DNA of 64,000 nucleotides from a virus. Below are positions 1,073 to 46,642 of this stretch, one piece after another. How positions within the stretch are numbered: the stretch's first letter is position 1; every line of letters begins with the position of its first letter. The stretch covers positions 48,863 through 112,862 of IMG/VR virus record IMGVR_UViG_3300033149_004566; one strand, written 5' to 3'. The notes below the pieces were generated by a model that saw only the letters and a program-made list of their open reading frames with translations, was not told the origin of the DNA and did no database searches. The position numbers and the translations under genes were made by a program.

Positions 1073-1458
1073 TTGAAAAGGGCATGTGCCCTATTAGAGC
1101 CCCACATAGAGCTAAAAAAATACGTGCCATGATTTCCGAGTTTGGATTTCGGATAGGCGACCCCGAGCTCAGATCTCCTTTAACTATGGACTTGCTTTTG
1201 AAAAATAGAGAAAAAATTCAAAAACAAATTGCCGAAGAAACGTCAGAAACTGCTCTGGAAATGCTGAATAAATCTCTAAATAAATTGAATGACAGGATAA
1301 AGTATCGCGAGGAAATGTTGCGGACGGTTTTATATCCGAAGGGTAAAGTTCCTTTCTCGATACAAAAAAAGTTTCCGATGTCGTTCTGGTCTACTAAAGG
1401 TGGGTTGAGAAATGTTCAAACGGTTGGTGTGAGAAGGCGTGGACGTAAGAAGCATTAG
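1069..1458 (+). CDS. Hypothetical basic protein, possible small-terminase position
   Basis: 129 residues from a TTG start that overlaps the previous stop (TTGA). A Lys/Glu-rich helical stretch lies in the middle (residues about 45-85, likely coiled coil) and the C-terminus is very basic (RRRGRKKH). It directly precedes and overlaps the large terminase by 20 bases. Small terminases usually sit here, but no helix-turn-helix is evident, so the role is inferred from context only. Confidence 0.6.
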   Translation: MIEKGMCPIRAPHRAKKIRAMISEFGFRIGDPELRSPLTMDLLLKNREKIQKQIAEETSETALEMLNKSLNKLNDRIKYREEMLRTVLYPKGKVPFSIQKKFPMSFWSTKGGLRNVQTVGVRRRGRKKH

Positions 1459-3127
1459 TCCGTTTTTGGATGATTTTCTAAAAAAATACGATTTCAAGGG
1501 CATGGATGATAACAGAATCATGAAGATGCTCTTGTCGTCTTTAGATTGGTCTACGTTTGCGGAAACGTGGTTTAGAAACCCAATAGATCCCACGCTACCA
1601 TTAAAATTGGAAAAGTTTCAGCGCCGCATCATAAATTATTTTCAATACGGCAAGTGCAGTAACATAATTGTCAAGTGCCCCCGTCAATTTGGTAAAACCA
1701 CTCTCATATCGATATTGTGTAATTTAATTGCCATTTTTGATCCGGGTGCTAAGATAGGCCTATTTTCTACATCACACGACCAGTCCAAGGAGATATTGGG
1801 TAAGGTCAGGAAATTCATGAGAACGTCGGCATTTTCTTACTTACTTGACGATAAAAGCGTTCAAACGCAAACCGAAATAAATTATAAGGATCCTCGCGGC
1901 CTTGGGCATGGGTGCAGGATTAAAGCGTATTCTAGTTCTGGCAAAACCGTTCGTGGCCCCGATTTGACTTACACGTTTATGGATGAAATGGGCCAAATGG
2001 ACGACGACTTCGTAAATCAGGTTGTCCGTCCGATGGGAAGGGCTGTTGGAAAGAAAGAACTCGGGGCAAGCACTCCTTTCGGTACGAGGGGCGAGTTTTG
2101 GAACTCACATGAGAAGCCGTATCATTGGGAATGTCAATCGTGTCATGCTAAGGGCTTTGATGAACCACACCCTTACACGTGCCCGAAATGCGGCGGTTCA
2201 GTTCAGACTCTTGGCCAATATAAAGTGTTTGATGTTTCACCTCTTGACGTGTCTTGGATCACGCCCGAAAAACTTGCGGCAGAAGCTGCACGTCTCGGCC
2301 CGATTGCAGCGCAACAGGAGCTGTTTGGAGAGTTTATCCCGGCCGGAGATACTTATTTTAGACACGACTGGATAGTGAATGCCAGGGTTTTCACGCCAGA
2401 GCAAAATTCAAGATTTTCATCCATGGGAAAACCGTATTATACCTATTATCTTTCCACGGATTATGGTAAACAACGTGATAGAGGCGTGATCATGATAGGC
2501 CATTTTCAGGATGACGTGTTGTATCTGGATTGGGTCGAATCACATCTAAAAATGCCGTATCCAAGATTTCAAGATAGAATGAAAACTCTTTGTGATAGAT
2601 ATAATGTTTCAGAGGCCATTTTGGATGGGAACGGTGTCGGAATTGCTCTCATAGATTATCTCCGCGAGGACGTGCAGGTGCCGATTTTTACCAACAAGCC
2701 CGATTTGGGCCCCGGATATAAGTACGGTAACAAGGAGAAATTTCAGATGTTGGAAGCTCTTGCCAACATGTTGATACGGAAGAGAGTTCGTTGGCCGTAT
2801 CATGAAAATCACTCTGACCCGAGGCAGGAAATGTATGAGTTATACATGATGGAGCAGGAGCTCATCAATTATTCTTATGAATGGGGAAAATCGTCAATCA
2901 TAATGGGAACTCAGAGCGAGCACGACGATAGGGTCATGGCTTTGGCACAGCTCGTTGGGGCAACAATGATGACACATTTTGACGATGTCATGCCGTATGG
3001 GGCTTCTGACGTGTCAAGAGATGATCGCGGATGGCCGGTTTTTGACGAGGTCGGGGAAGAATTTGACGTGATGTGGGTTGATAACACGACGGATCCGGAG
3101 TACGAAATATATGACACCATCTTCTGA
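1439..3127 (+). CDS. terL: Terminase large subunit (packaging ATPase/nuclease)
   Basis: 562 residues, GTG start. It is the motor that translocates DNA into the prohead and cuts the concatemer. The ATPase domain has Walker A CPRQFGKTT (residues 80-88) and Walker B YTFMDEM (178-184, Asp182-Glu183). The RNase H-fold nuclease has its acidic residues in STDYGK (Asp341), ILDGNG (Asp396) and HDDRV (about 495-499). A four-cysteine zinc ribbon is inserted between the domains (CQSC at 232-235, CPKC at 248-251), which is uncommon for terminases but known in some. Length is normal. It overlaps the preceding gene by 20 bases and leads into the PE-TFS gene. Confidence 0.95.
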   Translation: MDVRSISPFLDDFLKKYDFKGMDDNRIMKMLLSSLDWSTFAETWFRNPIDPTLPLKLEKFQRRIINYFQYGKCSNIIVKCPRQFGKTTLISILCNLIAIFDPGAKIGLFSTSHDQSKEILGKVRKFMRTSAFSYLLDDKSVQTQTEINYKDPRGLGHGCRIKAYSSSGKTVRGPDLTYTFMDEMGQMDDDFVNQVVRPMGRAVGKKELGASTPFGTRGEFWNSHEKPYHWECQSCHAKGFDEPHPYTCPKCGGSVQTLGQYKVFDVSPLDVSWITPEKLAAEAARLGPIAAQQELFGEFIPAGDTYFRHDWIVNARVFTPEQNSRFSSMGKPYYTYYLSTDYGKQRDRGVIMIGHFQDDVLYLDWVESHLKMPYPRFQDRMKTLCDRYNVSEAILDGNGVGIALIDYLREDVQVPIFTNKPDLGPGYKYGNKEKFQMLEALANMLIRKRVRWPYHENHSDPRQEMYELYMMEQELINYSYEWGKSSIIMGTQSEHDDRVMALAQLVGATMMTHFDDVMPYGASDVSRDDRGWPVFDEVGEEFDVMWVDNTTDPEYEIYDTIF

Positions 3128-3884
3128 CTTGCGGCCGAAAATATCCCTTTTTACGTTATTGCCTTACGTGATTCAGGAGCATAAAGCCAAGCGTGCCGGC
3201 TTACACTACGACTTTCGCGTGAAGCGCGGCGAAAATGATTGGGAATCCTGGGCGATAAGAAAGGGATTTCCGAAAAAGCCCGGGATAAAACATCTGGCCG
3301 CACCGACGCCGAGTCATGATGAATATTGGGCAAAATTTAGCGGCGTCATACCCAGGGGTTACGGCTCCGGTAGACAGAAAGTCGTTGAAAGCGGAAAAAT
3401 AGACGTGATAAGGGAGCGAAAGAAAAAAAATAAATCGATTACTTTCAAAAAGGGAAAAGATTATTACACCATGATAAAGTTAAAAAAGGGAAAAAATTGG
3501 TTGATTTTTAAAAACGAGTCGGTGAAGTGGCGCAGGACGAAGAGCGGGGGCAAATTTCCGAAGATCGATGAGATGGAAAAGGGAATGCCAAAAATGACGA
3601 ACAAGCAATATAAGGAGTTTTACAAGCGGATGTTGGACTTGGGCTTGTTGAATCAATATAAAACGATTGGTAAGCCCATAAAACAGGATCATGGGGGCAT
3701 ACCCATAATAGAAGATGGAATGTCGGCTCTTTCGGCTTATCCTACAGCTATAGGGGAAGTGTGTCCGAAATGTGGACACCCGGAAATAAAAACGTGGCAG
3801 CGTCAGACTAGATCTGCTGACGAACCGATGACGCAGTTTTTCAGATGTGTCAGGTGCGGATATACCTGGAGGGAATACGATTGA
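3111..3884 (+). CDS. LigD-type 3'-phosphoesterase fused to TFIIS/TFS zinc ribbon
   Basis: 257 residues from ATG 3111, with GGAG at 3097-3100. Residues 18-135 match the LigD 3'-phosphoesterase (PE) domain, which trims 3' ribonucleotides and phosphates at DNA ends. Seen are YVIQEH (His24), LHYDFR (His32, Asp34, Arg36), a WAIRKG strand, TPSHDE (His69), FSGVIP and the closing WLIF strand. The two-residue insert before LHYDFR is as in stand-alone archaeal PE proteins. Residues 218-257 are a TFIIS/TFS C-terminal zinc ribbon: CPKC (218-221), QTRSADEP with the catalytic Asp237-Glu238 hairpin, and CVRC (246-249). In TFS this ribbon enters the RNA polymerase funnel and triggers transcript cleavage. I know of no such fusion. 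It lies between terL and portal. Confidence 0.9.
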   Translation: MTPSSDLRPKISLFTLLPYVIQEHKAKRAGLHYDFRVKRGENDWESWAIRKGFPKKPGIKHLAAPTPSHDEYWAKFSGVIPRGYGSGRQKVVESGKIDVIRERKKKNKSITFKKGKDYYTMIKLKKGKNWLIFKNESVKWRRTKSGGKFPKIDEMEKGMPKMTNKQYKEFYKRMLDLGLLNQYKTIGKPIKQDHGGIPIIEDGMSALSAYPTAIGEVCPKCGHPEIKTWQRQTRSADEPMTQFFRCVRCGYTWREYD

Positions 3885-4192
3885 GCGTGACGTATAACGG
3901 TTACACGGCAATACAGCCGAGAGTCATGTTGAAAGAATATATTAAGAGGACAAATAATATTCCAGAAAGACGCGATGATAAATATGATAGAAATCCGAAA
4001 GGAAAACATGCTAAATTAAAAACAAAAGAACCGAAGAGACCCAAATATGATAAGAGTAATAGTAAGCCCGGACTTACCGATGATCAGATTCGTGGAAACC
4101 CGAAGGATTGGAAAAATTATACGATCGTGTTAAAAAATGTCAAAAAGATGCCGAAAATGGTTTTTGATCAATATGAGAGGTGTAGGGTTTAA
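3881..4192 (+). CDS. Hypothetical lysine-rich protein between PE-TFS and portal
   Basis: 103 residues from TTG 3881, chosen because GGAGGG at 3868-3873 sits 7 bases upstream and the TTG overlaps the preceding stop (TTGA). An upstream in-frame ATG at 3845 would lie inside the zinc-ribbon gene. The middle is very rich in Lys, Pro, Arg and Asp and looks disordered. The stop overlaps the portal ATG (TAATG). No family recognised. Confidence 0.6.
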   Translation: MSVTYNGYTAIQPRVMLKEYIKRTNNIPERRDDKYDRNPKGKHAKLKTKEPKRPKYDKSNSKPGLTDDQIRGNPKDWKNYTIVLKNVKKMPKMVFDQYERCRV

Positions 4193-6003
4193 TGGACGAC
4201 GAATATGACGCATGGATGGACGTGTACAAGCCGGAAAGAGTTGAAATTGAGAATTATGAAGATATAAATGATCTTTCTAATAGCATCGTGTCCATGGAGG
4301 TTGGGTACGAAGTTGCCATAAATATAGAAGATACGGCACAGGAAGACGTCAATTGGTATTATCAAACGCAGGACGAAGAAATACGCCGCCTGAAAAGGCA
4401 TCTCATTAAAAAAACACCGCAAAATTTGAGTTGGGCGTTTTGGGAAGATGATACTGCACAAGCATTTGCCATGGTTATAACTTATACTATAATAGGTGAT
4501 GGCATAAGAGTGCGACCGAGAAAGGACGGCTTGAAGAAAAAGAAAAAAGAAAAATTAGAAAGAATTATAGATGATTTCAATAACAATATCAACGAACGCG
4601 GAGAAGACGTGTATGATATAATTCATCAAGCCGTGATAGGTAACGTGATACATGGAAAACAATTATTTAAAAAGGTGTTTAGAAAAGATCCGTACACTGG
4701 AAAGGAATATTTGTCTCTTTATGAAATAGACATGAGAACCATATCTGAACTTGTAAATCCCATTCATGGATACAGGAAGTTCGTGCAGGATCATTACATT
4801 AATGAAGAATTGCGCGACATTGATAGAAAAACATTCATGGAAACGTACGATCCTTTTATAAATCCGGAAGATAAAAAAGTGATTAATATGGGAATTGCGA
4901 GGCACAGGGTTCCGGTTTATGATAATGAAGTTCTTTTCTTTAAATTTTATAAAAAGCCCCCAATGAGATCTATTGTTGATCTAATAGTTTATAAAAAATG
5001 GATTTATTATTTCATGAAACAGGCCGCCAAAGTTAGGGGCGTTCCGCCTCCAGTAATTACCGTTGGCAATCAGCAGAGCCATCCGACTTCACGTGATTAT
5101 CCAAAGTATCTAAAAAGGGCCGCTCAAATTGGTGGAAAATTAAAAAATTGGGATGCCCTTTCGATGCCTTGGAATTGGGCAGTACAGTGGATGGAAGGTG
5201 GAAGGCCGTTTGATTTCACGCCACATCTTCAATTTATCAATAGGAGAATTGTTTTCTCATTGCTCGGTTCGATATCTCTCTTGGAAGGCGCATCTGGAGA
5301 GCTTCATGGCCATGTCATAGAAACGGTTTGGCTTCGTGTAATTTCAGCATTTAGAAGAAAAATAGCTAGGGTGTTAGAAAAGTGCTACAATGAAGTACTC
5401 AAGATGAATGGCATCAACGAGGAAGTTGTCATTGAGTGGACGCCTTTACGTGAGCCCATTAGTAAAGCTGAAATTGCCGCGATATTATCATCGTTATTCC
5501 AATTGAATGCTCTGAAGGATGTTAATGAGTTACGTGAATTATTTTCAAAGAATGGCATAATAGATTTGTCTCCGATGGATGAAGATGAAGAAGAAAAAGG
5601 CTACGCTGGTACCGGAGTTGAAGAATTGATAACGTCGGTTATGCCGGTACAAATGGAAAATAAAATATTAAAACAAAAACTCGAAGAATTTAGTAAAACT
5701 GGCGATTTCAATAGAAAACAAGTTCACGTGAAAAATTTAAAAAGAAGCCTGTCGATGTTGAACAATTCTTTGGGAACTGAACAGGCAAGACCCGAAAAAG
5801 CCGTGAAAAAACCGTCGATAAAAACTCCCATGAATCCAAAACCGGATTCACTTGGTCATTCATCTTTGAAGATACCATCTTTGAAGGTAAAAAAGGAAGG
5901 ACAGCAATACATGGAAGCATCATCCGACGATGAAAGCACGTGTTATGAGGAAGACGGCGTGAAAAAAGGATATTGCCCGGAGGAAATAAAAAATGGAAAA
6001 TGA
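4192..6003 (+). CDS. Portal protein
   Basis: 603 residues. The portal is the dodecameric ring at the unique capsid vertex through which DNA passes. Evidence is position after terL, length, and the layout of a phage portal: an N-terminal alpha/beta region, a GNVIHGKQLF-type central segment, a YDNEVLFF strand followed by a long helix, then a region resembling the clip and stem (WNWAVQWMEGG, LLGSISLLEGASG). An acidic linker (DEDEEE, about residue 470) and a disordered basic C-terminal tail with two Cys follow. The tail contains the GGAGGA that serves the next small gene. Confidence 0.85.
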   Translation: MDDEYDAWMDVYKPERVEIENYEDINDLSNSIVSMEVGYEVAINIEDTAQEDVNWYYQTQDEEIRRLKRHLIKKTPQNLSWAFWEDDTAQAFAMVITYTIIGDGIRVRPRKDGLKKKKKEKLERIIDDFNNNINERGEDVYDIIHQAVIGNVIHGKQLFKKVFRKDPYTGKEYLSLYEIDMRTISELVNPIHGYRKFVQDHYINEELRDIDRKTFMETYDPFINPEDKKVINMGIARHRVPVYDNEVLFFKFYKKPPMRSIVDLIVYKKWIYYFMKQAAKVRGVPPPVITVGNQQSHPTSRDYPKYLKRAAQIGGKLKNWDALSMPWNWAVQWMEGGRPFDFTPHLQFINRRIVFSLLGSISLLEGASGELHGHVIETVWLRVISAFRRKIARVLEKCYNEVLKMNGINEEVVIEWTPLREPISKAEIAAILSSLFQLNALKDVNELRELFSKNGIIDLSPMDEDEEEKGYAGTGVEELITSVMPVQMENKILKQKLEEFSKTGDFNRKQVHVKNLKRSLSMLNNSLGTEQARPEKAVKKPSIKTPMNPKPDSLGHSSLKIPSLKVKKEGQQYMEASSDDESTCYEEDGVKKGYCPEEIKNGK

Positions 6004-6130
6004 TGAGGTTTATGCAACCGTTGTAAGATACGCGTGTAAGACACCGCATAAAAAAATACGATCCAAGGGAAAGGGACGCGGAAAAGCCAGGGGCAAGGGT
6101 AAAGGCCCGATTGGTATTCCTATAAAGTAG
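5993..6130 (+). CDS. Very small basic protein (45 aa)
   Basis: A 45-residue frame starting at ATG 5993 inside the portal's last codons and ending TAG 6128-6130. A strong ribosome binding site (GGAGGA, 5979-5984) lies 8 bases upstream, which supports expression. The second half is a run of Lys/Gly/Arg (KGKGRGKARGKGKG), like a nucleic-acid-binding tail. It fills what would otherwise be a gap between portal and the next gene. Function unknown; could condense or contact DNA in the head. Confidence 0.55.
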   Translation: MENDEVYATVVRYACKTPHKKIRSKGKGRGKARGKGKGPIGIPIK

Positions 6131-6140
6131 AGGTGTTAAA

Positions 6141-6401
6141 ATGGATTCATCCATATGGTTGATGGAAGTTGTTCGTCTCGAATCTGAAAAATGGAAAGAC
6201 GAGGATACTGAGCCATCTGAAGGAATGTCTGAAGAGGAAAAATCTGAAGTTGTAAAAAAAGCGAAAAAAGGTAAAGATATCGGTAAAAAGGGAAAAAAAT
6301 TTAAAGAAGTGGCTGAAAAAGCGGCAGAAAAGTACGGATCTAAAGAAGCCGGTGAAAAAGTTGCTGCTGCCGCAATGTGGAAAAATTTGAAAGGTAAATG
6401 A
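6141..6401 (+). CDS. Small charged protein with YGSKEAGEKVA motif
   Basis: 86 residues; AGAGGTG lies 6 bases before the ATG. The N-terminal half is acidic, the C-terminal half is Lys-rich with the segment EKYGSKEAGEKVAAAAMWKN. Short helical motifs of this type occur near the ends of various phage structural proteins, but I cannot assign a function. Located between portal and the MuF fusion gene, so a head-associated role is plausible. Confidence 0.6.
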   Translation: MDSSIWLMEVVRLESEKWKDEDTEPSEGMSEEEKSEVVKKAKKGKDIGKKGKKFKEVAEKAAEKYGSKEAGEKVAAAAMWKNLKGK

Positions 6402-6404
6402 TCA

Positions 6405-8663
6405 ATGATACCCGTGTCCGTATTGATGGAACCGCCCAAGGTGGTAAAAGATCCTTTAAAATCATCGTCATTGATAAAGTCATTCGTGATGATGAATAAA
6501 ATGAAATTTAAGGGTCTGGTTCCAAAAATAATGGACGCTATCAGGCAATCCAGGCGCGTTGTTCAGATGGAAACCGGTGCACGATATCTCAAGAGATACA
6601 TCGATAACATGTTATATAATAGCATTGTCGATCCGCATTTATTGGATAGGATGAAGTCATTCGTGGAAAACACGTATATTCAACACTCTAGAATGTTGCA
6701 AGAAGAATTGTATAAATTGAAGATGGTTCCCACGACAATGGCCGTCATGACTCCTACTGATGAGGACAGGGTAGAGGATAGAAAGGATACTATAGAAAAA
6801 ATGGCAAGCCTGGAAGCCGAACGCTTGAGTGCGAGGATTCATGACATAATAGATAGGGCTTATCATAATGCCGAACCGTTATACAAAATAAAAAAAGAAC
6901 TACAAAAATCCATAAAAGTTAGCAAGAAAGAATCCGCTAGAATTGCCAGAACCGAGCTCATAAAAACCATGAACTTGGCCAGGTTGGAACGTATGACTTC
7001 ATCGGGGATCGAATATTATCAGTGGGTTTCGGCTCCTTCGTTTGATGAGAGATTGTGTCCTTTATGTGGCGAATTAAATGGAAAAGTAATAAAGTTGGGC
7101 AGGTCGTTTTCGGATTTAGTGCGAAACGAATCATCCAAGAAAATAATGGGAACTAGACAGATCTATTATCCTCCGGCACATCCGAATTGCAGGTGCACTA
7201 TAAGGCCATCTTATGCTCCGGTAATTACCAGGCCGTTAAAAGAACCGAAATTTATAAAGAAAATATTCGATAAGTTTCCTGGCTTGAGGCCCAAAACCTT
7301 GATAACACAAAAGATCGGCCCGACTTCGATAGATATCATACAGGCGGAAGAATTAGAGGACTGGCACGAATTGCACGATTTATATTTAAATGAATCGAAA
7401 AGATGGGGTGGCGATCTTCGTAAGCGATTGATATATCAGGCGATGGAAGCAAAAAATAGGGCAATGAAGGAAGACATAGAATTATTCGAGCGCGATAACT
7501 TGGAGGAAATGGAAAAGCCGAAATGGACGCATTATCCTTTAACAAAAGATGAAATTTATTATCATTATGCGCGAAATTGGGATAAATTGTATCCGGAATT
7601 GAAGGGCCGAAGAGTGGCGATCCGTAACCGCAGGGGCGTCATTTTACGTAATTGGGAGCCCGGTGGAAAGCCCATAGAAATAAAAAATAAAAATGATTTA
7701 AAAAAAGTAGTCTATAATAAAAATGCGGTTGAATTGATTCCGGAGTTGAGCACCAAAAGGATGAAACCATCAAATACAAGAAGGTTTCTCGTGGATTTAG
7801 ATTCAAATAGACCGATAGACGAGACGGTTGTCAAAAAAACAGTTGAAAAAATGAAAACGCTGCCGGTCAATAATGTTCAGGTTATATTTTCCGGGAAGCG
7901 TGGATATCACGTTAGAGGTGATACAAAAAAGAGTTACACGTGGAAAAAAGCGAGAAAAATGCTTCGTGAGGCGATGAAGCCTCTATCAGAACAATACAAT
8001 GATATAATTTTTGATTTATCACCCATGAAAAGACGTGGAGTTAGTGTATCTCCTTATAGTTTGAGATATTTGCCGACAGAAAGACAGGGCGTTGCACATC
8101 ACGTGCAATTTGAAGAGTGGTATGAAAAGGGTGCGTTAGGCACGCGGGACATAATTCCGGAAAAATTAAAATTGCCTAGCGGAAGAAATGCTTTCTTCAG
8201 GAAAACGTTTCTTGGCATCCAAAAACGAAAGTTGTATACCGAACAGGAATATAAATTGCAGGCGGCTTTACCGATCATATCGGCATTGAAACACGATCTC
8301 GATTTATCCGATTCGGTACAAAAAGAAGCGAAAAGGATATTTAAAAAGGCTTATAGTAGCGGGATAACACAGGGTAGAAAAACATCGTCCAATGCCGCGG
8401 TATCTGTTTACAATGCCATGAGATCGTTGGGAATGAGCAGGCCGATAAAAGATTTTCTTCCGCATGCAAATGTAAAGACCGGATCTTTTGTCAGGGCGGT
8501 TAAAAAATTTCAGGACGCTTTAAACTTGCCAAAATTTAAAGTCGGAAAGCGCGCCGACGTGGAAGAGGCAAGAAAGTATTATAAAAGCATGAAACGTACC
8601 GGTATAAGCAAGCGTAAAGTTGCAAGAATGTTTGGCGTGTCTCCGTCGAGTATAGGTGATTAG
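6405..8663 (+). CDS. MuF minor head protein fused to LigD-type polymerase and TFB cyclin domains
   Basis: 752 residues. (1) About 40-270: MuF/SPP1 gp7 minor head domain, with IARTELIKTMNLAR, LCPLCGELNG and the closing PPAHPNCRC; such proteins enter the prohead and can be ejected with DNA. (2) About 375-590: a LigD-Pol-type archaeo-eukaryotic primase/polymerase (AEP). Its N-terminal LTKDEIYYHYA...LYPELKGRR matches the LigD-Pol entry segment. Motif I is VDLDS (Asp464, Asp466), motif II FSGKRGYH (His502), and motif III IIFDL (Asp537) followed by SVSPYSLR. (3) About 618-710: one TFB/TFIIB cyclin repeat, including LDLSDSVQKEAKRIFKKAY and AAVSVYNAMRSLGMSRPIKDF, then a helix-turn-helix (735-750). 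All AEP catalytic residues are present. I know of no precedent for this domain order. Confidence 0.88.
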   Translation: MIPVSVLMEPPKVVKDPLKSSSLIKSFVMMNKMKFKGLVPKIMDAIRQSRRVVQMETGARYLKRYIDNMLYNSIVDPHLLDRMKSFVENTYIQHSRMLQEELYKLKMVPTTMAVMTPTDEDRVEDRKDTIEKMASLEAERLSARIHDIIDRAYHNAEPLYKIKKELQKSIKVSKKESARIARTELIKTMNLARLERMTSSGIEYYQWVSAPSFDERLCPLCGELNGKVIKLGRSFSDLVRNESSKKIMGTRQIYYPPAHPNCRCTIRPSYAPVITRPLKEPKFIKKIFDKFPGLRPKTLITQKIGPTSIDIIQAEELEDWHELHDLYLNESKRWGGDLRKRLIYQAMEAKNRAMKEDIELFERDNLEEMEKPKWTHYPLTKDEIYYHYARNWDKLYPELKGRRVAIRNRRGVILRNWEPGGKPIEIKNKNDLKKVVYNKNAVELIPELSTKRMKPSNTRRFLVDLDSNRPIDETVVKKTVEKMKTLPVNNVQVIFSGKRGYHVRGDTKKSYTWKKARKMLREAMKPLSEQYNDIIFDLSPMKRRGVSVSPYSLRYLPTERQGVAHHVQFEEWYEKGALGTRDIIPEKLKLPSGRNAFFRKTFLGIQKRKLYTEQEYKLQAALPIISALKHDLDLSDSVQKEAKRIFKKAYSSGITQGRKTSSNAAVSVYNAMRSLGMSRPIKDFLPHANVKTGSFVRAVKKFQDALNLPKFKVGKRADVEEARKYYKSMKRTGISKRKVARMFGVSPSSIGD

Positions 8664-8664
8664 A

Positions 8665-9231
8665 TTGCCGATAACAGTAAAAATGAGCTCTTTAAAATTA
8701 AAAAGGTTGATTCCACAGGCAATATATCATATAAAAAGCGAAGCCGCGCAAATATTGATGTTTAGCATAATAGAAGTTTTCATGCAACAGGGACTTCCGG
8801 ATGAACAATGGAAGCAGTTGTCGGCGATAACTGTCGAGAAAAAACACTCCAGATCTATTTTGATAGATAAGGGATTTTTGATGAACTCCATTACGGTTGG
8901 GCCAATCGATGTTGATAAACCCGTGGAAGTTGGAATATTTGAAGGGCCCGCTCTCAGGTATGCTTGGATACATGAGTTTGGTGGCACGATTCCGGTTACT
9001 GACAGCATTAGAAAATTTTTTATAGCAAAGACCGCAGAAGAACGAAGACAACGTCCAGGATTGCCTGAAGATTCTTACACGTGGCATCCTTTGAGAAATG
9101 ATACTAACGTGATATCAATTCCGGCAAGACCCTTTATGAGGTGGGGCGCCATCATTGCACGTCCTAAAATTAGTAAAATGGCTGAAAGAGTTTGGTATAC
9201 GATGATTAATCAGGGATTGATAATTAAATGA
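8665..9231 (+). CDS. Virion morphogenesis protein, Mu gpG-like tail completion
   Basis: 188 residues from TTG 8665, with GGTGAT at 8655-8660 five bases upstream; a GTG at 8656 is the alternative. The sequence shows the pattern of the gpG/HK97 gp10 group: a GFLMNSI strand, YAWIHEFGGTIPV in the middle, and ISIPARPFMRWG near the end. These proteins act at the head-tail junction, commonly next to MuF proteins, as here. It shares ATGA with the following nucleotidyltransferase. Confidence 0.75.
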   Translation: MPITVKMSSLKLKRLIPQAIYHIKSEAAQILMFSIIEVFMQQGLPDEQWKQLSAITVEKKHSRSILIDKGFLMNSITVGPIDVDKPVEVGIFEGPALRYAWIHEFGGTIPVTDSIRKFFIAKTAEERRQRPGLPEDSYTWHPLRNDTNVISIPARPFMRWGAIIARPKISKMAERVWYTMINQGLIIK

Positions 9232-10064
9232 AAACATTACCCATTTATACGTTGCAAGACACTCTAAATCCTGAAATTTGGATAGGAGATGGTAAAAATG
9301 CAAGATTGCGAAAAAAAATTAAAAATGTCATCATGGATTCCGTTCGTAAATCTTTGGATAAATACGGTGGTAAGCCAAAGCGTATCATCATCGTTGGCTC
9401 CTCTGTTGCTTATAGATGGCGAAAAGACGGTGATATTGACGTACACGTTGAGGGAAAATTTCCCATCAATGACTATGAGGTGGACGAATATAAAATACCC
9501 GGATCAAAATTGACTATAGAGGTGGTATTAACCAATCAAAAATTTCCCAGTACAACGCGCGCTGAGGGCGTTTATAACGTGGTGATGGATAAATGGATTA
9601 AAACTCCAGAACGATTTCCGGGCAAGGTTTATTGGGATCCATTAATAGAGGAAGCGTCTTCATGGGCTAGAAAGGTGGATCTCGATATGGGCGAATTAAA
9701 ACGCGATCTTCTCGAATATATTTTATATAAAGAGAATGGCGGCGACGAGTCTGCCCTTGCAAGAAAAGCCGACGAAATAAAATCCGATTTGAATAGCATT
9801 GTTGATACTTGGGATGCTCTAAAAAATGAAAGAACGAAGGCACTTTCCGGCGATTCCGACGACACGAGGTTTTTTAAAAATCCGAGCAAGTCATCCATGT
9901 TGCAACCGGAAAATTTGATATTTAAAATACTGCAGAGATTTCAGTACAACGATTTGATGAAGCGCGTGAAACAACTCGTCAGGGATCTTCAGGACGAGAC
10001 GAATTTTGATGTTATTGAGAGGATAATAACGAGATTTTTGAAGAAGGAAAGGTGGATTAAATGA
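9228..10064 (+). CDS. Pol-beta superfamily nucleotidyltransferase
   Basis: 278 residues. The N-terminal half has the Pol-beta nucleotidyltransferase signature: IIIVGSSVAYRW (Gly57-Ser58) followed by GDIDVHV (Asp69, Asp71), with a third acidic residue in KLTIEVVL (Glu98). These enzymes transfer NMPs to nucleic acid, protein or small molecules. The C-terminal half is helical and unrecognised. It overlaps both neighbours by ATGA and stands inside the head operon, near the LigD-type PE and Pol domains. That raises the possibility of a joint role in DNA-end metabolism, but the substrate cannot be read from sequence. Confidence 0.75.
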   Translation: MKTLPIYTLQDTLNPEIWIGDGKNARLRKKIKNVIMDSVRKSLDKYGGKPKRIIIVGSSVAYRWRKDGDIDVHVEGKFPINDYEVDEYKIPGSKLTIEVVLTNQKFPSTTRAEGVYNVVMDKWIKTPERFPGKVYWDPLIEEASSWARKVDLDMGELKRDLLEYILYKENGGDESALARKADEIKSDLNSIVDTWDALKNERTKALSGDSDDTRFFKNPSKSSMLQPENLIFKILQRFQYNDLMKRVKQLVRDLQDETNFDVIERIITRFLKKERWIK

Positions 10065-37402: not shown

Positions 37403-37756
37403 TTACAACCTTCCTAACACGTCTTTTAACGTGTCTGTTACCGTTAGAGGAATGTTTTTTATTTTTTCTTTACTTTCGGTGTTATCTTTTTTATATTTTA
37501 CGTGTTTCATTACAATGTACCACATCTGTATTATAAATGCGGCCAGATGTGTCAACTTCATGGTATCTCCATTCTCTATCTCTATAAAAGTCTCGAGAAG
37601 AGAATTAAGATCTTCTTCAAATTTACTTCCAGAAAAATCTCCTGCTGTTATGTGTAGCAGGTAAATCATTTCCATGGTTTCCGCAAAGTTTAATTTCTCG
37701 CGGAATAATTTATTTTTTAACTCGTATTTTCTTTTATCAATATCTACGCTTTTCAT
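37403..37756 (-). CDS. Hypothetical helical protein at the end of the knuckle array
   Basis: 117 residues, mostly helical and charged, with no cysteines and none of the knuckle motif of its upstream neighbours. EEDLNSLLETFIEIENGDTMKLTHLAAFIIQMW is a possible coiled coil plus hydrophobic helix. It overlaps the upstream gene by 4 bases. Function unknown. Confidence 0.55.
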   Translation of the reverse strand: MKSVDIDKRKYELKNKLFREKLNFAETMEMIYLLHITAGDFSGSKFEEDLNSLLETFIEIENGDTMKLTHLAAFIIQMWYIVMKHVKYKKDNTESKEKIKNIPLTVTDTLKDVLGRL

Positions 37757-38142
37757 GTTCTATCACGCATTATATTTAATATGTTTCTATCATTATTTAT
37801 TTTTTTTACCATATATTTAAATATGGTATCTTCGGATAAGTGTGTTATTATGACCGATGGATTACTTAAGGCACACATGATGTTTTCTTCGGTCGGGTTT
37901 TCATCGCAAATGTATGAACAATCCTTGCACGGATTGCATGATTTGCAATAATATTCGAGAGCGGCCTTGATAAATAAGTCTATGATTATCGAACCAGTAT
38001 TTTTCTTGAATCTGGTAATCATCCCGAAAAAATCTCCATCTGTTATTCTTTTATTATTCGGTTGTTTACCAGACATCTTACATATTATTAAGTTTCCATA
38101 TAAATTATAAATGATGACATTTGTTATTTCCACAATTATCAT
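37753..38142 (-). CDS. Knuckle-array protein 15
   Basis: 129 residues. Core YCKSCNPCKDCSYIC (C-x2-C-x2-C-x2-C plus one more Cys) around residue 66-80. The C-terminal helical part (LSEDTIFKYMVKKIN) matches the array pattern. The N-terminal segment, FFGMITRFKKNTGSIIIDLFIKAALEY, is longer than in most members. Last member in transcription order. The cysteines probably bind Zn; an Fe-S cluster is less likely. Confidence 0.6.
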   Translation of the reverse strand: MIIVEITNVIIYNLYGNLIICKMSGKQPNNKRITDGDFFGMITRFKKNTGSIIIDLFIKAALEYYCKSCNPCKDCSYICDENPTEENIMCALSNPSVIITHLSEDTIFKYMVKKINNDRNILNIMRDRT

Positions 38143-38507
38143 CCTTCTACAGTTCTATAAATTTTGAGCAAGCGTCTTATTTCCGGAATCGTAAGCTCGT
38201 CAATAATATCTTCTATCTGGAACTCATCGAGATAGTTTTCAATGTTTCCCCATGTGTTTTCGACGATCTTTATCAGATCATCATGGTTGCATCTTGCCGG
38301 CAGCGTGCATTTTCTACCGGCACATATACGACAGTTTTTTACATGGGGATTATTATATATTATCGAACACACGTCATATTTGGTCATCAAATTTGTCTTT
38401 TCTATTATAAATTTAACGATGTCTGAAATAGCGTCTTGATCGTATTCATCTTTTATGAACACTTTTTTTAATATTATGTTGCCAGACAATATTTCCATGC
38501 ATATCAT
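38139..38507 (-). CDS. Knuckle-array protein 14 (divergent spacing)
   Basis: 122 residues. Cysteine core is CRICAGRKCTLPARC, so spacing is C-x2-C-x4-C-x5-C rather than the array's regular C-x2 ladder. Helical C-terminus IEDIIDELTIPEIRRLLKIY matches the array's closing helices. ATGA overlap with member 15. Confidence 0.6.
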   Translation of the reverse strand: MICMEILSGNIILKKVFIKDEYDQDAISDIVKFIIEKTNLMTKYDVCSIIYNNPHVKNCRICAGRKCTLPARCNHDDLIKIVENTWGNIENYLDEFQIEDIIDELTIPEIRRLLKIYRTVEG

Positions 38508-38872
38508 GTATTCATCTCCACCAGATATTTCATGATTAGATAGTCGAGCGGCAATTTTTCAGTTATTTTGTCCTTTGACACGAACTTCAATATTGATTTC
38601 ACGTCGTAATATTCTCTTATGACAATACTAAATGGCGTTGTAGTGTAGTCGATCTCAACCAGATGACAGTCCAGACATTTTTTACAATTAAACCAATAGC
38701 ATTCTATTTCTCTCATTAGCATATCTCCGTATTTTTTTTGTATTTTTTTCCAATCATTGAAATCTCTTGACGCTTGCCTGATCTCCAAGTAAACGTAATA
38801 TCGTTCGGCTTTTACTGAAGTTCTCTCCATGATGGCATTTTCTTTGTATATTTTACAAGTTACAACGTTCAT
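38504..38872 (-). CDS. Knuckle-array protein 13
   Basis: 122 residues. Core CYWFNCKKCLDCHLVE (C-x4-C-x2-C-x2-C) near residue 58-69. The N-terminus starts MNVVTCKIYKEN in the same short-strand style as the others. C-terminal VKSILKFVSKDKITEKLPLDYL is the conserved helical end. Overlaps member 12 by 20 bases. Confidence 0.6.
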   Translation of the reverse strand: MNVVTCKIYKENAIMERTSVKAERYYVYLEIRQASRDFNDWKKIQKKYGDMLMREIECYWFNCKKCLDCHLVEIDYTTTPFSIVIREYYDVKSILKFVSKDKITEKLPLDYLIMKYLVEMNT

Positions 38873-39200
38873 GATAATACTCCAGTAAGATTTTGTTGTC
38901 TATACTTTTTAATCTGCGCTGCTCGGGTATTTCGATTATTACTGCCGTTGCTCCGATAAAGTAGTACACGATATCGTGTAAAGTTAGTCCGCTGGCGTTA
39001 AAATAATTACAATATTCACACTTGTAGCATTCATCGAGTCTAAGATCACATGAAAGGACGTTTCCTATGATCTTAGATGTTAACAGATGGTGTCTGCGCA
39101 ATATGATGAAAATTTTTTCCGCAATGACGTTGATATAACGCATAACGTTTTTTGATAATATGTTTAAGGAATTCTTGAAGTCTATCACTTCAATTTTCAT
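38853..39200 (-). CDS. Knuckle-array protein 12
   Basis: 115 residues. Core CDLRLDECYKCEYCNYFNASGL: the first Cys is displaced (C-x6-C-x2-C-x2-C), and the NYFNA ending is shared with members 5 to 7. Starts MKIEVIDF. ATGA-type 4-base overlap with member 11. Confidence 0.6.
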   Translation of the reverse strand: MKIEVIDFKNSLNILSKNVMRYINVIAEKIFIILRRHHLLTSKIIGNVLSCDLRLDECYKCEYCNYFNASGLTLHDIVYYFIGATAVIIEIPEQRRLKSIDNKILLEYYHERCNL

Positions 39201-39532
39201 CTTATTGCCCCCGTTTTTCTAAGATATGCTTTCTTCAATTGTTTTTTAGAGAAACGTTTGAATATGTATTTTAAATCGACATGTTGTAATAATGCCCGCG
39301 GAGTGTAAACGGTATATATGATGTCTTCGAGTCCTTCGTAAAGGTTAATGTTGATGTAATCACAATCATCGCATGCTAACGGGCAGTCATCGCATAAATA
39401 TTCATATACCGCTTTTTTTATTTCCGGGTTTATTACCGATAAAACCCTAATGTTGACTGAAAATACGTCTGTGCTCTTACTAGATGCAGTTATTATATTT
39501 TTATAGGTTTCATTTAGAGATATCTTTAACAT
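39197..39532 (-). CDS. Knuckle-array protein 11
   Basis: 111 residues. Core CDDCPLACDDCDYIN (C-x2-C-x3-C-x2-C). Followed by the usual LEDIIYTVYTPRALLQHVDLKYIF, the helix-turn-helix-like closing segment seen in most members. Basic C-terminus. Overlaps member 10 by 23 bases. Confidence 0.6.
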   Translation of the reverse strand: MLKISLNETYKNIITASSKSTDVFSVNIRVLSVINPEIKKAVYEYLCDDCPLACDDCDYININLYEGLEDIIYTVYTPRALLQHVDLKYIFKRFSKKQLKKAYLRKTGAIR

Positions 39533-39830
39533 TATAATCGACCATTAAATTAATATCAGATAGATATTTTAATATTAACTCTTTTCCTATGCATGTAAGT
39601 AAGATTTCTACGTTAAATATCGCGTATATCATCTTTCTCAAGCTGAAAAACGAGTTAAAATCGGCTCCATCACAATCGTCACACTTGTCGCAATTTTCAC
39701 ACAATTTTTCATACACTATTTTTTTCATGTCGGTTTTTGTCATCGTGATAATCAATTGTATTAATTTTATAATGTTGCCAGACGACATTAATCTATTTTT
39801 ATGTATCTCACAATATATTATTTTTATCAT
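39510..39830 (-). CDS. Knuckle-array protein 10
   Basis: 106 residues. Regular core CENCDKCDDCDGADF (four Cys at C-x2 spacing). Closely related to member 9 in both core and C-terminus (GKELILKYLSDINLMVDYN against GKSEILKHLHDEILIVDYN), so the pair is a recent duplication. Confidence 0.65.
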   Translation of the reverse strand: MIKIIYCEIHKNRLMSSGNIIKLIQLIITMTKTDMKKIVYEKLCENCDKCDDCDGADFNSFFSLRKMIYAIFNVEILLTCIGKELILKYLSDINLMVDYNVKDISK

Positions 39831-40125
39831 TATAATCGACTATCAAGATTTCATCGTGCAAGTGTTTTAATATTTCCGACTTTCCTATAAAAGAAAGCAC
39901 GGTTTTTATATTGTATATATCATATATCAATTTTTTCAGGTCTAAAATAACCCTCATGTTTAATCCATCACATACATCACACATATCACATTCGTTGCAA
40001 TAATCTGGAATTGCTTTTTTTAATGCATAACGAAGATCGTAAATGACTGCAAGCCCCTTTAATTCAAAATCGTTTTTTTTGGACTGTAATTTCAAATTTT
40101 TATGATACAGGATTATATAATTCAA
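39808..40125 (-). CDS. Knuckle-array protein 9
   Basis: 105 residues. Regular core CNECDMCDVCDGLNM. Shares the VDYND ending with member 10. N-terminus MNYIILYHKNLKLQ. One base separates it from member 8. Confidence 0.65.
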   Translation of the reverse strand: MNYIILYHKNLKLQSKKNDFELKGLAVIYDLRYALKKAIPDYCNECDMCDVCDGLNMRVILDLKKLIYDIYNIKTVLSFIGKSEILKHLHDEILIVDYNDKNNIL

Positions 40126-40126
40126 C

Positions 40127-40438
40127 TCACTCCACTGTCCTCAATTCCAGTTCGTTTAACAGGTCTCCGGTTTTTAATTTCTCGAGGATGTCTTTCACGT
40201 TTATATGTTTTAATACGTTCAAAAAACCAAATACATAATATATCATGTAGAAAATAGATTTATTGCGGCTATCCACGAATTCGCATCTCTCACACATGTT
40301 ACATTTGTTACAATAATCCTGAAATATAGTTATCTTGACAGCTGGATGCATGTACATGGGATCGACAATTAATGAGATTGACGAATTGTCTAAGGACATA
40401 AATTTCAAGTTTAAATATTTAGTTCTCAATATTTTCAT
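40127..40438 (-). CDS. Knuckle-array protein 8
   Basis: 103 residues. Regular core CNKCNMCERCEFVDS, followed by IFYMIYYVFGFLNVLKHINVKDILEKL, the conserved helical end. Starts MKILRTKYLNLKF. ATGA overlap with member 7. Confidence 0.65.
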   Translation of the reverse strand: MKILRTKYLNLKFMSLDNSSISLIVDPMYMHPAVKITIFQDYCNKCNMCERCEFVDSRNKSIFYMIYYVFGFLNVLKHINVKDILEKLKTGDLLNELELRTVE

Positions 40439-40779
40439 ATCGTCGCATCCGTAAGACGATTTAATAAGTAATCAGTGTCAATATTTTTGAGCAGAATTGT
40501 TTTCTCTATGCATGTTATTATGTCAAATAATTCAAAATAATCGTTTACTATTTGTCTGATTGTCATAAAAGATGCATCAAAATATTCACAGTTATCACAT
40601 CGCACGCAATAGTTACAAATATTATCCCAGAGCACGTCGTAATACTCCGTGCTTCCAAAAAATTCACTTGTAATTAACATGTATGATAACAACTTGTATA
40701 CGCTTGCTCTATCATCAAGACCCACTGATATTTTTTCGCCACTCATATTTTGCACGATATCGACAAACATAATTTTCAT
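40435..40779 (-). CDS. Knuckle-array protein 7
   Basis: 114 residues. Regular core CNYCVRCDNCEYFDAS; the EYFDA ending is shared with members 5, 6 and 12. Starts MKIMFVDIVQNMSG. Helical end EKTILLKNIDTDYLLNRL. Single-base overlap with member 6. Confidence 0.65.
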   Translation of the reverse strand: MKIMFVDIVQNMSGEKISVGLDDRASVYKLLSYMLITSEFFGSTEYYDVLWDNICNYCVRCDNCEYFDASFMTIRQIVNDYFELFDIITCIEKTILLKNIDTDYLLNRLTDATI

Positions 40780-41120
40780 TAACCATGCTCCTCCAAGTGT
40801 TGCATTAATTTTTTCGTGCTCAGATATTTTAGCATTGTTTTTTTATCCACATAATTCATAATTTCATATATATCAAAATATTCGTATATAATATCTCCTA
40901 AATACATTGCAGCGGCGTTGAAGTAGTCACAGTCGCTACATATTTCACAACTGTCACACACGCCACTAAATTCATCATGTATCATGGAGTACAATTTTTC
41001 GCATCTAATTGCATTCAGAAAGAAACCAATATTTTCACATTTGATGACGTTTGACTGCAATCTTTTCAGGTTTCTTACATCCAAATCATGAATTACGGAT
41101 ACGGACATTGCCATTTTCAT
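40779..41120 (-). CDS. Knuckle-array protein 6
   Basis: 113 residues. Regular core CDSCEICSDCDYFNAAAM, followed by LGDIIYEYFDIYEIMNYVDKKTMLKYL. This is one of the most typical members: short N-terminal strands, four-Cys ladder, YF[ND]A, then a closing helical pair. ATGA overlap with member 5. Confidence 0.65.
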   Translation of the reverse strand: MKMAMSVSVIHDLDVRNLKRLQSNVIKCENIGFFLNAIRCEKLYSMIHDEFSGVCDSCEICSDCDYFNAAAMYLGDIIYEYFDIYEIMNYVDKKTMLKYLSTKKLMQHLEEHG

Positions 41121-41485
41121 GCTATCGTCGCCCTTTCAAAATAAGATTTTAACATGTCGGTGGACACGTGATCGAGCAACACGCGCTTGCTCCATTTTGA
41201 TGCAATGTGTTTTAAGATCTCATAATCGCCAAATTTACTATATATGATGTTATCAAGTGATGGATCGGTTGCATCAAAAAAATTACAGTAAATGCATTTA
41301 TCACATTTATAACATATATATTTTTTAATAAATTCTCTATCGTGTATCATTCTATCTGGATCTGCGATTTTTCTCGACAGATAATATATGATGTCGTCGT
41401 CGTCTACATTTAACATATAAAGATAATAATCGGTTTTTAAGTTTCTTGTTGTCAAAAGCATCCCATCAAACAATAATATTTTCAT
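41117..41485 (-). CDS. Knuckle-array protein 5
   Basis: 122 residues. Regular core CYKCDKCIYCNFFDATDPSL. Starts MKILLFDGMLLTTRN. C-terminal segment YEILKHIASKWSKRVLLDHVSTDML is the family end with a short insert. Overlaps member 4 by 20 bases. Confidence 0.65.
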   Translation of the reverse strand: MKILLFDGMLLTTRNLKTDYYLYMLNVDDDDIIYYLSRKIADPDRMIHDREFIKKYICYKCDKCIYCNFFDATDPSLDNIIYSKFGDYEILKHIASKWSKRVLLDHVSTDMLKSYFERATIA

Positions 41486-41795
41486 CCTTTTTCACCAATG
41501 CGTTCGTATCGATGTGTTTTAGTATGGCAGTTTTTTCCACGTATTTCAATAATTCGTGGCTATCAAACATCAAATATATCATTTCCTCCAAGCTTTTAAA
41601 TATGGAGTAGTTGATATATTCGCATCCCACGCATGTTTGACATTGCCCACATTTCACGTGCTTGAAGGTGGCAAGCGCGTCTTCTTCTAACATGGCGTCT
41701 TGAAAAGGCTCTAAAAAATACGGATCGATACCGTTATATTTACAAAATTTAAAAGATAGATTTTGTTTATCTGTGCAAAATAACAATACTTTCAT
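41466..41795 (-). CDS. Knuckle-array protein 4
   Basis: 109 residues. Regular core CGQCQTCVGCEYINYS. Starts MKVLLFCTDKQNLSF; closing helices HELLKYVEKTAILKHIDTNAL. Overlaps member 3 by 29 bases. Both lie in the same operon direction with no spacing for a promoter. Confidence 0.65.
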   Translation of the reverse strand: MKVLLFCTDKQNLSFKFCKYNGIDPYFLEPFQDAMLEEDALATFKHVKCGQCQTCVGCEYINYSIFKSLEEMIYLMFDSHELLKYVEKTAILKHIDTNALVKKDENIIV

Positions 41796-42135
41796 TCTTC
41801 AACCTCCATAAAGTCCGCAGTGAATCATTTGACAAGTGCGAAAGCATGTGAATTTTTTTGACGTGGGCTAAAATTAATCTGACTCCGAACACCGAATATA
41901 TTATTTCTCTTAGAATTTCATTGCCGTCAAAGTATTCGCATCTATTGCATTTATCACAGTTGCAGCACAGCACTTCGTACAGCTTTTCAAATAACATGTC
42001 ATTGTTAAAAAATCCCACGCATGATAACGTTTTTTTCATGCCATTATGGCCCAATAGATACGATGAATGTTTCCGTATCAGTATTTCAAGAGCAGCTTTA
42101 TTGTGTATGATGTATTTCAACAATTTAATATTCAT
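41767..42135 (-). CDS. Knuckle-array protein 3
   Basis: 122 residues. Core LCCNCDKCNRCEYFDGN (regular ladder plus an extra Cys). A longer N-terminal region (residues 1-50) than the typical member. Overlaps member 2 by 11 bases. Confidence 0.65.
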   Translation of the reverse strand: MNIKLLKYIIHNKAALEILIRKHSSYLLGHNGMKKTLSCVGFFNNDMLFEKLYEVLCCNCDKCNRCEYFDGNEILREIIYSVFGVRLILAHVKKIHMLSHLSNDSLRTLWRLKNESIVILHR

Positions 42136-42466
42136 GGCAAGCTGTCCCGTATCTTTGTAATAAAACTTCGTTGGATATTCTATGCATCATTTCTGATGCC
42201 GTTAAACCAACATTATTTTTTAGTTCTTCGAGAATATTTCTTGTATAGTATATGTTTTTTACTACATATTCTAATGGAAACATGTTTACGAGAATTCTGC
42301 CCCGTTTACAGATACAAACATTACATAATTTATCACTCAGCTCTTTTGAAAAATATTTTAATTTTCTATAAACACGTTTTATCGGCCACATGTTTACGTG
42401 ATCGTTCAATATGAGATGATATTTTGAACGATTATTGTTATTAAATTCTGTTATTATTGCTTTCAT
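42125..42466 (-). CDS. Knuckle-array protein 2 (degenerate motif)
   Basis: 113 residues from ATG 42466, chosen because GGTGA lies about 10 bases upstream and the MKAII start matches other members; an upstream ATG at 42505 overlaps member 1. The metal site is reduced to LCNVCICKRG (three Cys), so metal binding may be lost or altered. The rest keeps the family length and helical end. Confidence 0.55.
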   Translation of the reverse strand: MKAIITEFNNNNRSKYHLILNDHVNMWPIKRVYRKLKYFSKELSDKLCNVCICKRGRILVNMFPLEYVVKNIYYTRNILEELKNNVGLTASEMMHRISNEVLLQRYGTACHEY

Positions 42467-42491
42467 TTTTTCTTTCACCAAAAAAGTGGAG

Positions 42492-42857
42492 TTATAAAAC
42501 TCCACGCCTGATTAACTCGTTTTTTATGTCGTCTATCGAAAGAAAATCCAACATGTCTTCGACGTCTATGGCATCCAATAGTTCGTCCATTGTAATTCTC
42601 CCGTCCATTAGAGTCGTGACGAAGTGGTGGGCGTCGTATAATACCTTATCACAGTTTTCACACCTGTCGCAATTTTCACAGAAAACGTCCTCGATCGCTC
42701 CGCGTAATACTGACAGCAATTTACTTTCGTCGTCTTCGAGGACATAATATATATCGTGTATGAATTCCTCCATCTCCTCATATAAAGACAGGTTGTAGAT
42801 TTTTTTGAATAATTTTTTATCTTTGCCTACCGTGGTGTTATATATAATCACGTACAC
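42492..42857 (-). CDS. Knuckle-array protein 1
   Basis: 121 residues. First member in transcription order, next to the E1-JAMM-E2 cluster. Regular core FCENCDRCENCDKVLYD. Acidic N-terminal region (YEEMEEFIHDIYYVLEDDESK) and closing MDELLDAIDVEDMLDFLSIDDIKNEL. Its start overlaps the stop of the zinc-ribbon gene upstream by one base. Confidence 0.65.
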   Translation of the reverse strand: MYVIIYNTTVGKDKKLFKKIYNLSLYEEMEEFIHDIYYVLEDDESKLLSVLRGAIEDVFCENCDRCENCDKVLYDAHHFVTTLMDGRITMDELLDAIDVEDMLDFLSIDDIKNELIRRGVL

Positions 42858-43312
42858 TACAGCACCTCAACGTATTCATTGCAATAGAAGCAAAAATACT
42901 TCTTTTCTCTTCTATCATACGCGGATTTTTTTCCGCACACGACACACGACCTTTTATGAAGATCTTCCACGCTATCACATGGTATCGGCTCCAATTTTTC
43001 AAACAAACTGTCGTCGCGTTTTGATATTCCTTGTACTATGTTTACCAACATGTGCCATATTTTTGCTACCTGTATTGGGTCGTATTCATATTTTAATGCG
43101 TCGAGCACGTATGCTTGTGTTTTATTTTTTATAATCACGTGTCCGAGATATTCTGATTTGGCAATATTCTCCGGCGTGTTCCATGGATGAGACCAGAACA
43201 GTATGGCGGATAATCTGACGTCATAATTTCCGCCTTTTTCAACGTCTCTTTTTTCGCAATACCTGAAAATCTTGTCTATGGTGTTGTAATAATACATGCC
43301 TAGGAAATTCAA
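42857..43312 (-). CDS. Hypothetical protein with C-terminal zinc ribbon
   Basis: 151 residues. Residues 118-148 form a C-x2-C...C-x2-C ribbon (CVVCGKKSAYD, FCFYCNEYVEV) resembling the end of the E2-like protein (CVSCGKMFALD, LCMGC). The N-terminal 110 residues are helical and unrecognised. It overlaps the E1 stop by ATGA, so it belongs to cluster B and may be its adaptor or substrate. Confidence 0.6.
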   Translation of the reverse strand: MNFLGMYYYNTIDKIFRYCEKRDVEKGGNYDVRLSAILFWSHPWNTPENIAKSEYLGHVIIKNKTQAYVLDALKYEYDPIQVAKIWHMLVNIVQGISKRDDSLFEKLEPIPCDSVEDLHKRSCVVCGKKSAYDRREKKYFCFYCNEYVEVL

Positions 43313-43983
43313 GACGTGAGCACCATGAAATTTTCTACATCATAATCATATCTGAAATGATTTTTGTCCGCGTTATCACGGATTTCATTAAATATCAGGG
43401 CGCAGGCGGTTGCTGCGACTTGATTCAACGTGAAAATTATGGTTTGCTGTGTACACGGAATGTCAAGTGTTTTTCTATCTAATGTCTCTGCCCAATTATC
43501 GATTTTTTCTGGTGTCACGTAGAACACCGCGCAGAATAGTCCTCCTGTTCTTGCGTCGATTATAGTTCTCTTGTTTTTTAAAAGGACGTCTTTCACTATT
43601 TTTCTAGAGGTCATCGAGTCGACTCCGAGAACGACAAAGTCGCACTCTTTGAACTCATTCACGTGGTTTTTTCCGAACAATTCGTTGTACTTGATGACTT
43701 CAACTCTTCCAGGAGATACTTGCTTGATTCGGTTTTCAAGAGCGTCTACCTTTGGAAGATCTACTTCGTCCCTGAAGAAGAATTGATTCGGAAGGTTGTG
43801 CTCTTCGATCACGTCATCATCAAACAGCACGAATTTTCCGACGCCCATTTTTGCCAGCATCGTGCATATGATGGAGCCGACAGAGCCACATCCTATCATC
43901 ATGACGCTTACATCCTGTATTGTTTCGGGATTAATCCATCCCGATTGCCTCAAAAAGGTATTTATAATGTTCATCTTTATCAA
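43309..43983 (-). CDS. E1-like (ThiF/MoeB-type) activating enzyme, cluster B
   Basis: 224 residues, a minimal adenylating domain that would activate the C-terminus of a ubiquitin-like protein. Seen: MMIGCGSVGS (29-37, nucleotide-binding glycine loop), VLFDDDVIEEHNLPNQFFFR (52-71) with the ribose-binding Asp and the Asn-Arg region, K78VDAL, VVLGVDS (117-123), IIDART, and a candidate catalytic Cys177 in DIPCTQQT before the closing helix. Length is that of a bare ThiF domain. It overlaps the JAMM gene by 4 bases. Confidence 0.88.
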   Translation of the reverse strand: MIKMNIINTFLRQSGWINPETIQDVSVMMIGCGSVGSIICTMLAKMGVGKFVLFDDDVIEEHNLPNQFFFRDEVDLPKVDALENRIKQVSPGRVEVIKYNELFGKNHVNEFKECDFVVLGVDSMTSRKIVKDVLLKNKRTIIDARTGGLFCAVFYVTPEKIDNWAETLDRKTLDIPCTQQTIIFTLNQVAATACALIFNEIRDNADKNHFRYDYDVENFMVLTS

Positions 43984-46341: not shown

Positions 46342-46356
46342 ACAAAATCACCACGT

Positions 46357-46638: not shown

Positions 46639-46642
46639 GTTT

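Follow-up and report, generated by a model that had tools for sequence, protein, structure and literature searches.

A 64,000-nucleotide stretch of viral DNA (the window, bases 48863-112862 of the 112,862-bp record IMGVR_UViG_3300033149_004566) carries in its head gene module two genes that encode parts of LigD joined to domains of archaeal transcription factors. PE-TFS is a LigD-type 3'-phosphoesterase (PE) fused to the zinc ribbon of TFS/TFIIS, while MuF-Pol-TFB combines a MuF domain, a LigD-type primase-polymerase (Pol) domain and a TFB/TFIIB cyclin repeat on one chain. Sequence comparisons support the view that LigD parts are a real and recurring viral set, and in viruses these enzymes are found in two settings, the head module or the operon of RNA polymerase (RNAP). 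The window virus, with no RNAP in its whole 112.9-kb record, has both links covalently: Pol is attached to MuF and TFB, and PE is attached to TFS beside the terminase. We tentatively favour the reading that the two proteins may belong to a LigD-derived viral kit that works without Ku, heals the 3'-ends of entering DNA, is encoded in the head gene module and is tethered to transcription. The TFS and TFB domains, together with PolB, a PriS-PriL-like primase and an XPF-type nuclease, suggest a tailed virus of an archaeon, the host being assigned only to the archaeal level.

The PE domain (3162-3518, + strand) of PE-TFS (3111-3884, +) matches the families LigD_N of Pfam (E=8e-16) and LigD_PE_dom of NCBIfam (1.5e-16), and its matches in the PDB are the archaeal PE structures 3p4h, 3p43 and 5dmp. 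The metal ligands His42, His48 and Asp50, which are invariant in the relatives compared, are conserved together with Arg52 and His84. A 2-residue insert between His42 and His48 is common to most viral PEs and to archaeal stand-alone PEs; it was considered as a virus signature and dropped when the genome scan found archaeal stand-alone PEs that have it. In a PE tree the window sequence lies on a long branch and in no supported group. The TFS/TFIIS C-terminal ribbon of the protein (3753-3875, +; TFIIS ribbon E=1e-17 in Pfam, TFS_arch 1.3e-13 in NCBIfam, TFIIS/RPC10-type ribbons in the PDB) retains the CxxC...CxxC pattern and the catalytic Asp-Glu tip (RSADEP). It is the single ribbon matched in Pfam and NCBIfam, the N-terminal zinc ribbon of TFS being absent from PE-TFS. 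Cleavage factors insert the Asp-Glu tip into the RNAP secondary channel, and the inhibitor TFS4 has a Lys tip (PMC5715097).

MuF-Pol-TFB (6405-8663, +) is a protein of 752 residues. Its MuF domain (6837-7202, +), of the minor head or portal-associated kind, matches PF04233 (1.2e-14) and the PHROG minor head and head morphogenesis families, and the gene has the position expected of MuF in a head operon, flanked by terminase and neck genes. The Pol domain (7527-8084, +) matches ligD_pol of NCBIfam at 1e-4 and, at E=2.2e-15, a viral Pol profile made from ten other viral Pol domains with the window sequence left out; this profile had no match up to E=10 in 2000 shuffled sequences or in the remaining frames of the record's left part. 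By sequence the best PDB match of Pol is an archaeal polymerase of non-homologous end joining (NHEJ), which is weak on its own. The AlphaFold model of the protein, with a mean predicted local distance difference test score of 56, is too poor for the domain arrangement to be read, and the best PDB match of this low-confidence model is the Pol domain of M. tuberculosis LigD (2iru, E=2e-4). Residues D464, D466, S496, H502, D537 and R554 correspond to motifs I-III of LigD and to the Arg of 2iru, so that all six positions are present, and the segment PYSLR is identical in the two proteins. Their counterparts in LigD Pol are D137, D139, S172, H178, D227 and R244, which bind metal, nucleotide and phosphate (PMC8656161). 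That the MuF-borne Pol is the replicative primase of the virus was rejected because the virus has a PriS-PriL-like fusion primase of its own at another place; the gene of this primase (L002:9526-10575, -) adjoins those of a PD-(D/E)XK nuclease and a family B DNA polymerase. Downstream of Pol, the cyclin repeat (8226-8543, +) matches PF00382 (3.1e-12) and the TFB structures 1d3u and 1ais (7e-10), and it may bind to DNA or TBP. A helix-turn-helix-like (HTH-like) C-terminal tail follows (8544-8660, +; PHROG HTH 0.049), with helices that are locally confident in the AlphaFold model.

An earlier note on this DNA, made from the letters alone, had placed LigD PE and Pol modules among head genes, and both modules are borne out by the Pfam, NCBIfam and PDB matches and by the viral Pol profile. 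For the head genes themselves the picture is less uniform: the terminase large subunit (1439-3127, +; Pfam TerL_ATPase 1.5e-7, PHROG terminase 4.6e-30), MuF and a neck or tail-completion protein (8656-9231, +; PHROG 9.6e-16) are recognized by profile, and the putative portal (4192-6003, +) is called by position only, because its open reading frame (ORF) gave no significant profile match.

The two transcription-factor domains could also be taken to inhibit or redirect host RNAP, with the LigD domains as nucleic-acid-binding scaffolds only. The TFS paralogue TFS4 can indeed block RNAP (PMC5715097) and an RNAP inhibitor of an archaeal virus is known (PMC5123050), but the window ribbon has the Asp-Glu tip of cleavage factors and not the Lys tip of TFS4, while the active site of Pol is complete and that of PE almost so, and we regard such a takeover of host transcription as improbable.

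LigD parts were found in 44 other viral records, and alignment-based scans gave 55 viral PE loci and 41 PE loci in cellular genomes, the latter mostly archaeal stand-alone PEs of ~120 residues. In one group of viruses (Family B) PE and Pol are accompanied by an ATP-dependent ligase (records G003, G004, G006, G008 and G010; PE and Pol in G005). The order on one strand in G003, G006 and G010 is terminase, portal, a protein of 446-536 residues and a giant ligase-Pol protein (2273-3474 residues), with PE within the giant or in the next protein. The portal is likewise upstream of the ligase, Pol and PE proteins in G004 and G008, and the head protease and major head protein come afterwards in G008 and G005. 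The slot of the Family B giant thus resembles that of MuF-Pol in the window virus. In a second group (Family C: L079, L083, L086, L089, L090) the gene of a Pol-PE protein of ~500-540 residues stands back to back between two RNAP genes, one for beta joined to an N-terminal portion of beta' and the other for the remainder of beta'. PE-ligase genes are next to that of a fused RNAP in L016, near one in L080, and beside or near RNAP genes in L055. Conserved linkage in other viral contigs, which the earlier note had proposed to look for, is therefore seen in part: LigD parts do recur by head or RNAP genes, whereas the PE-TFS/MuF-Pol-TFB pair and the linkage to a nucleotidyltransferase do not. No viral or cellular PE locus found has a TFS or TFB fusion, so the two fusions are so far unique to the window virus.

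The association with RNAP was also counted. RNAP homologues lie within ~10 kb of 18 of the 55 viral PE loci (15 when four near-identical L090-type loci are counted once), compared with 0/120 random viral stretches, similar in total length to the PE loci, and 0/41 cellular PE loci; the random stretches took the place of a control via NRDD, which had given no loci. Per record, RNAP is found in 25 of the 44 that bear PE versus 0 of 27 random viral records, and when only records of 34-130 kb are considered the figures are 10/19 and 0/24 (Fisher p ~5e-5), p-values of this kind being optimistic because related records are not independent. Tailed viruses are mosaic, archaeal stand-alone PEs are common and many single viral PEs are away from terminase, all of which would suit a set of separately captured genes that lie close by accident and have no joint function. 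On the other hand, distant viruses combine PE, Pol and ligase with one another and with genes for the head or RNAP, and since LigD parts come after TerL and portal or in the RNAP operon of unrelated phages, the head and transcription links are more than coincidence; we hold the accidental mosaic to be the least probable of the explanations considered here.

In cells, TFS and TFB domains contact RNAP or promoter complexes. In the end-healing scheme that we tentatively favour, MuF would place Pol at the portal vertex next to the packaged DNA end, and MuF-Pol-TFB would enter the cell with the DNA. The TFS ribbon would dock PE on host RNAP, chiefly on stalled or backtracked polymerase, while the TFB repeat and HTH tail would keep Pol on DNA or on promoter complexes. 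PE would turn 3'-phosphate or 3'-ribonucleotide ends into clean 3'-OH, Pol would fill gaps or add ribonucleotides, and sealing would be left to a host ligase or to a viral T4 Rnl1-like RNA ligase with an intact KLDG motif (62790-63869, -; RNA_lig_T4_1 1.7e-17, TIGR02308 4.9e-11), which is a candidate sealing partner. The outcome would be that nicks, gaps and ends of the incoming genome are made transcribable and joinable early; in phages with their own RNAP the same enzymes are instead encoded in or near its operon. A more strictly transcription-coupled form of Ku-less end repair, in which LigD enzymes ride RNAP (the virus's own, or that of the host through TFS and TFB) and heal the incoming genome during its first transcription, is possible though doubtful.

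The best rival is that the enzymes act late, on terminase-made ends or concatemer nicks, and that MuF merely anchors Pol at the portal. The ATG of PE-TFS overlaps the TerL stop by 17 nt (its ORF is open from 3078), the MuF protein gp7 is portal-associated (PMC5576092), and the ligase-Pol-PE giants likewise come after terminase and portal, all in keeping with a role in packaging; the TFS and TFB fusions and the placement in RNAP operons would be left unexplained, and we judge this account unlikely. Less likely still is a counter-defence weapon delivered by MuF, in which PE and Pol target nucleic acids or nucleotide signals of the host or reverse the damage done by its nucleases. MuF-Pol-TFB has multiple enzymatic and nucleic-acid domains on one chain encoded with virion genes, which matches the anatomy of polyvalent proteins; many MuF-effector enzyme fusions are known (PMC5512222, PMC5576092), and the giants L008, L009 and L010 have extra domains such as TopoIB, ASCH, LigT and DJ-1. 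The recurrence of PE, Pol and ligase across giants, however, is easier to reconcile with a shared pathway of repair than with a toxin.

Several observations weigh against a 3'-end-healing kit. The earlier note had reported no DNA ligase or Ku in the window, and this holds across the whole, possibly incomplete, record, with no match to PF01068 (ATP-dependent DNA ligase) up to E=10 and none to PF02735 (Ku), although an RNA ligase is present; Ku was also absent from all 12 of the viral records with LigD parts that were tested for it (0/12). The fusion to TFS and TFB claimed in the same note stands in that both domains are matched, but the TFB part consists of one repeat and the HTH-like tail, with no second cyclin repeat, N-terminal ribbon or B-reader in MuF-Pol-TFB. 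The ribbon and B-reader are the parts of TFB that recruit RNAP, and a fragment without them should therefore not do so by the usual route. In the window PE, Trp replaces Tyr88, a residue essential in P. aeruginosa LigD (PMC8656161); the same change occurs in 10/45 viral and 9/39 cellular relatives, and because it is so common it was not taken as inactivation and was rejected as proof that PE is inactive. Several single-domain viral PEs are far from terminase. Within RNAP-bearing records, PE is ≤10 kb from RNAP in 8 of 18 versus 3.6 expected (p=0.013), a closeness moderately above chance. Finally, viral contigs scanned singly with PE-TFS, MuF-Pol-TFB and TerL yielded no close relative of the virus, so that the pair is known from one record only; tblastn likewise gave no PE or Pol relative in 50,697 sequenced phage records.

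The Pol-beta-type nucleotidyltransferase that follows the neck gene (9228-10064, +), noted earlier as a neighbour of the LigD modules, is present though weak (NTP_transf_2 E=0.0025, below cut-off). Its relatives in Maribacter and Prevotella Lak phages (E ~1e-6 to 1e-4) match it over nearly the full length. In Maribacter phage Molly_1, the sole relative whose neighbourhood was examined, it is near a NUDIX gene and outside any head module, and its profile has no match in the PE loci; on these grounds it was left out of the kit, to which it is probably unrelated.

Other features of the window and of the records compared may be set beside these. A small basic ORF of 115 residues (3845-4192, +) belongs to no family, and terminase residues 229-256 form a zinc-ribbon-like insert (DUF7129, 3e-5). 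Elsewhere in the same virus (L003:8108-8938, -) an Elf1-like zinc ribbon (E=7.5e-7) is fused to a glycosyltransferase-like domain, so that this protein, otherwise unrelated, bears a third ribbon of transcription-factor type. One gene run (43980-53456, -) encodes a ubiquitin-like conjugation set with two ThiF/E1-like proteins, two JAB peptidases, an AAA ATPase and a CobT-like VWA protein, and ~16 ORFs of similar sizes (103-151 residues) stand in succession at 37403-43312 (-). Among the LigD proteins of other viruses, a ligase-Pol-PE giant of 3178 residues (L014:794-10330) has an intein with a LAGLIDADG endonuclease inserted in its PE domain, and insertions several hundred residues long, which may be inteins, are present in the portal genes of its phage group. 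L008:9560-12556 joins PE to the core of a eukaryote-type topoisomerase I and to an ASCH domain, and a viral protein of 1329 residues (L074:9908-13894) has PE, ligase-like, inorganic pyrophosphatase and SNF2 helicase domains. A Woesearchaeota-binned genome has a viral-type Pol beside a ligase-like ORF (L257, G064:C2:148374-148940) and a viral-type PE elsewhere (L126), and may hold a large virus within the metagenome-assembled genome. The matches to Pol in Bathyarchaeota-type genomes resembled common primases of mobile elements.

Ku-dependent LigD repair is well described as prokaryotic NHEJ, and to our knowledge phages join it only by supplying Ku. The window virus shares the PE and Pol catalytic residues of bacterial LigD and of split archaeal NHEJ (Methanocella PE 5dmp, Pol 5dmu), and as in the archaeal set the enzymes are encoded separately; unlike both, it has neither Ku nor DNA ligase, carries MuF, TFS and TFB fusions and encodes them in a viral head operon. 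A survey of ~3000 actinobacteriophages found no NHEJ component, and according to the same paper the mycobacteriophages Omega and Corndog supply Ku to host LigD (PMC7719229). These phages also use NHEJ, but encode Ku and borrow LigD, whereas the window virus encodes LigD parts and no Ku. The SPP1 MuF protein gp7 binds the portal at one or two copies per capsid (PMC5576092). As in gp7 and the MuF polymorphic toxins, MuF is near the N-terminus of the window protein and the gene lies among head genes, but its LigD Pol and TFB repeat set it apart from the MuF fusions described in PMC5512222 and PMC5576092. Polyvalent phage proteins, for which MuF-effector fusions and AEP primases have been described (Iyer et al. 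2017, PMC5512222), are likewise enzymes of several domains whose genes accompany those of the virion; what is new in the window virus is the presence of domains from archaeal transcription factors, and LigD goes unmentioned in the paper's main text. Homologues of the beta and beta' subunits of phiKZ/AR9-type jumbo phage RNAPs adjoin PE, Pol-PE or PE-ligase genes in several related viral records, while the window virus, unlike such phages, has no RNAP but has domains that partner that of the host. Passages from the jumbo-phage and archaeal tailed-virus literature do not report LigD parts, and we found no description of a viral LigD kit in the open-access literature, so its novelty is provisional.

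If the reading is correct, a Ku-less viral LigD set linked to head genes and RNAP would represent a novel way of repairing DNA as a virus enters the cell, and would account for some of the giant polyvalent proteins in uncultured phages. PE-TFS offers a natural fusion with which to test whether RNA polymerase can carry end repair. The finding points to a possible means, so far undescribed, by which viruses may repair or ready their DNA on entering the cell.

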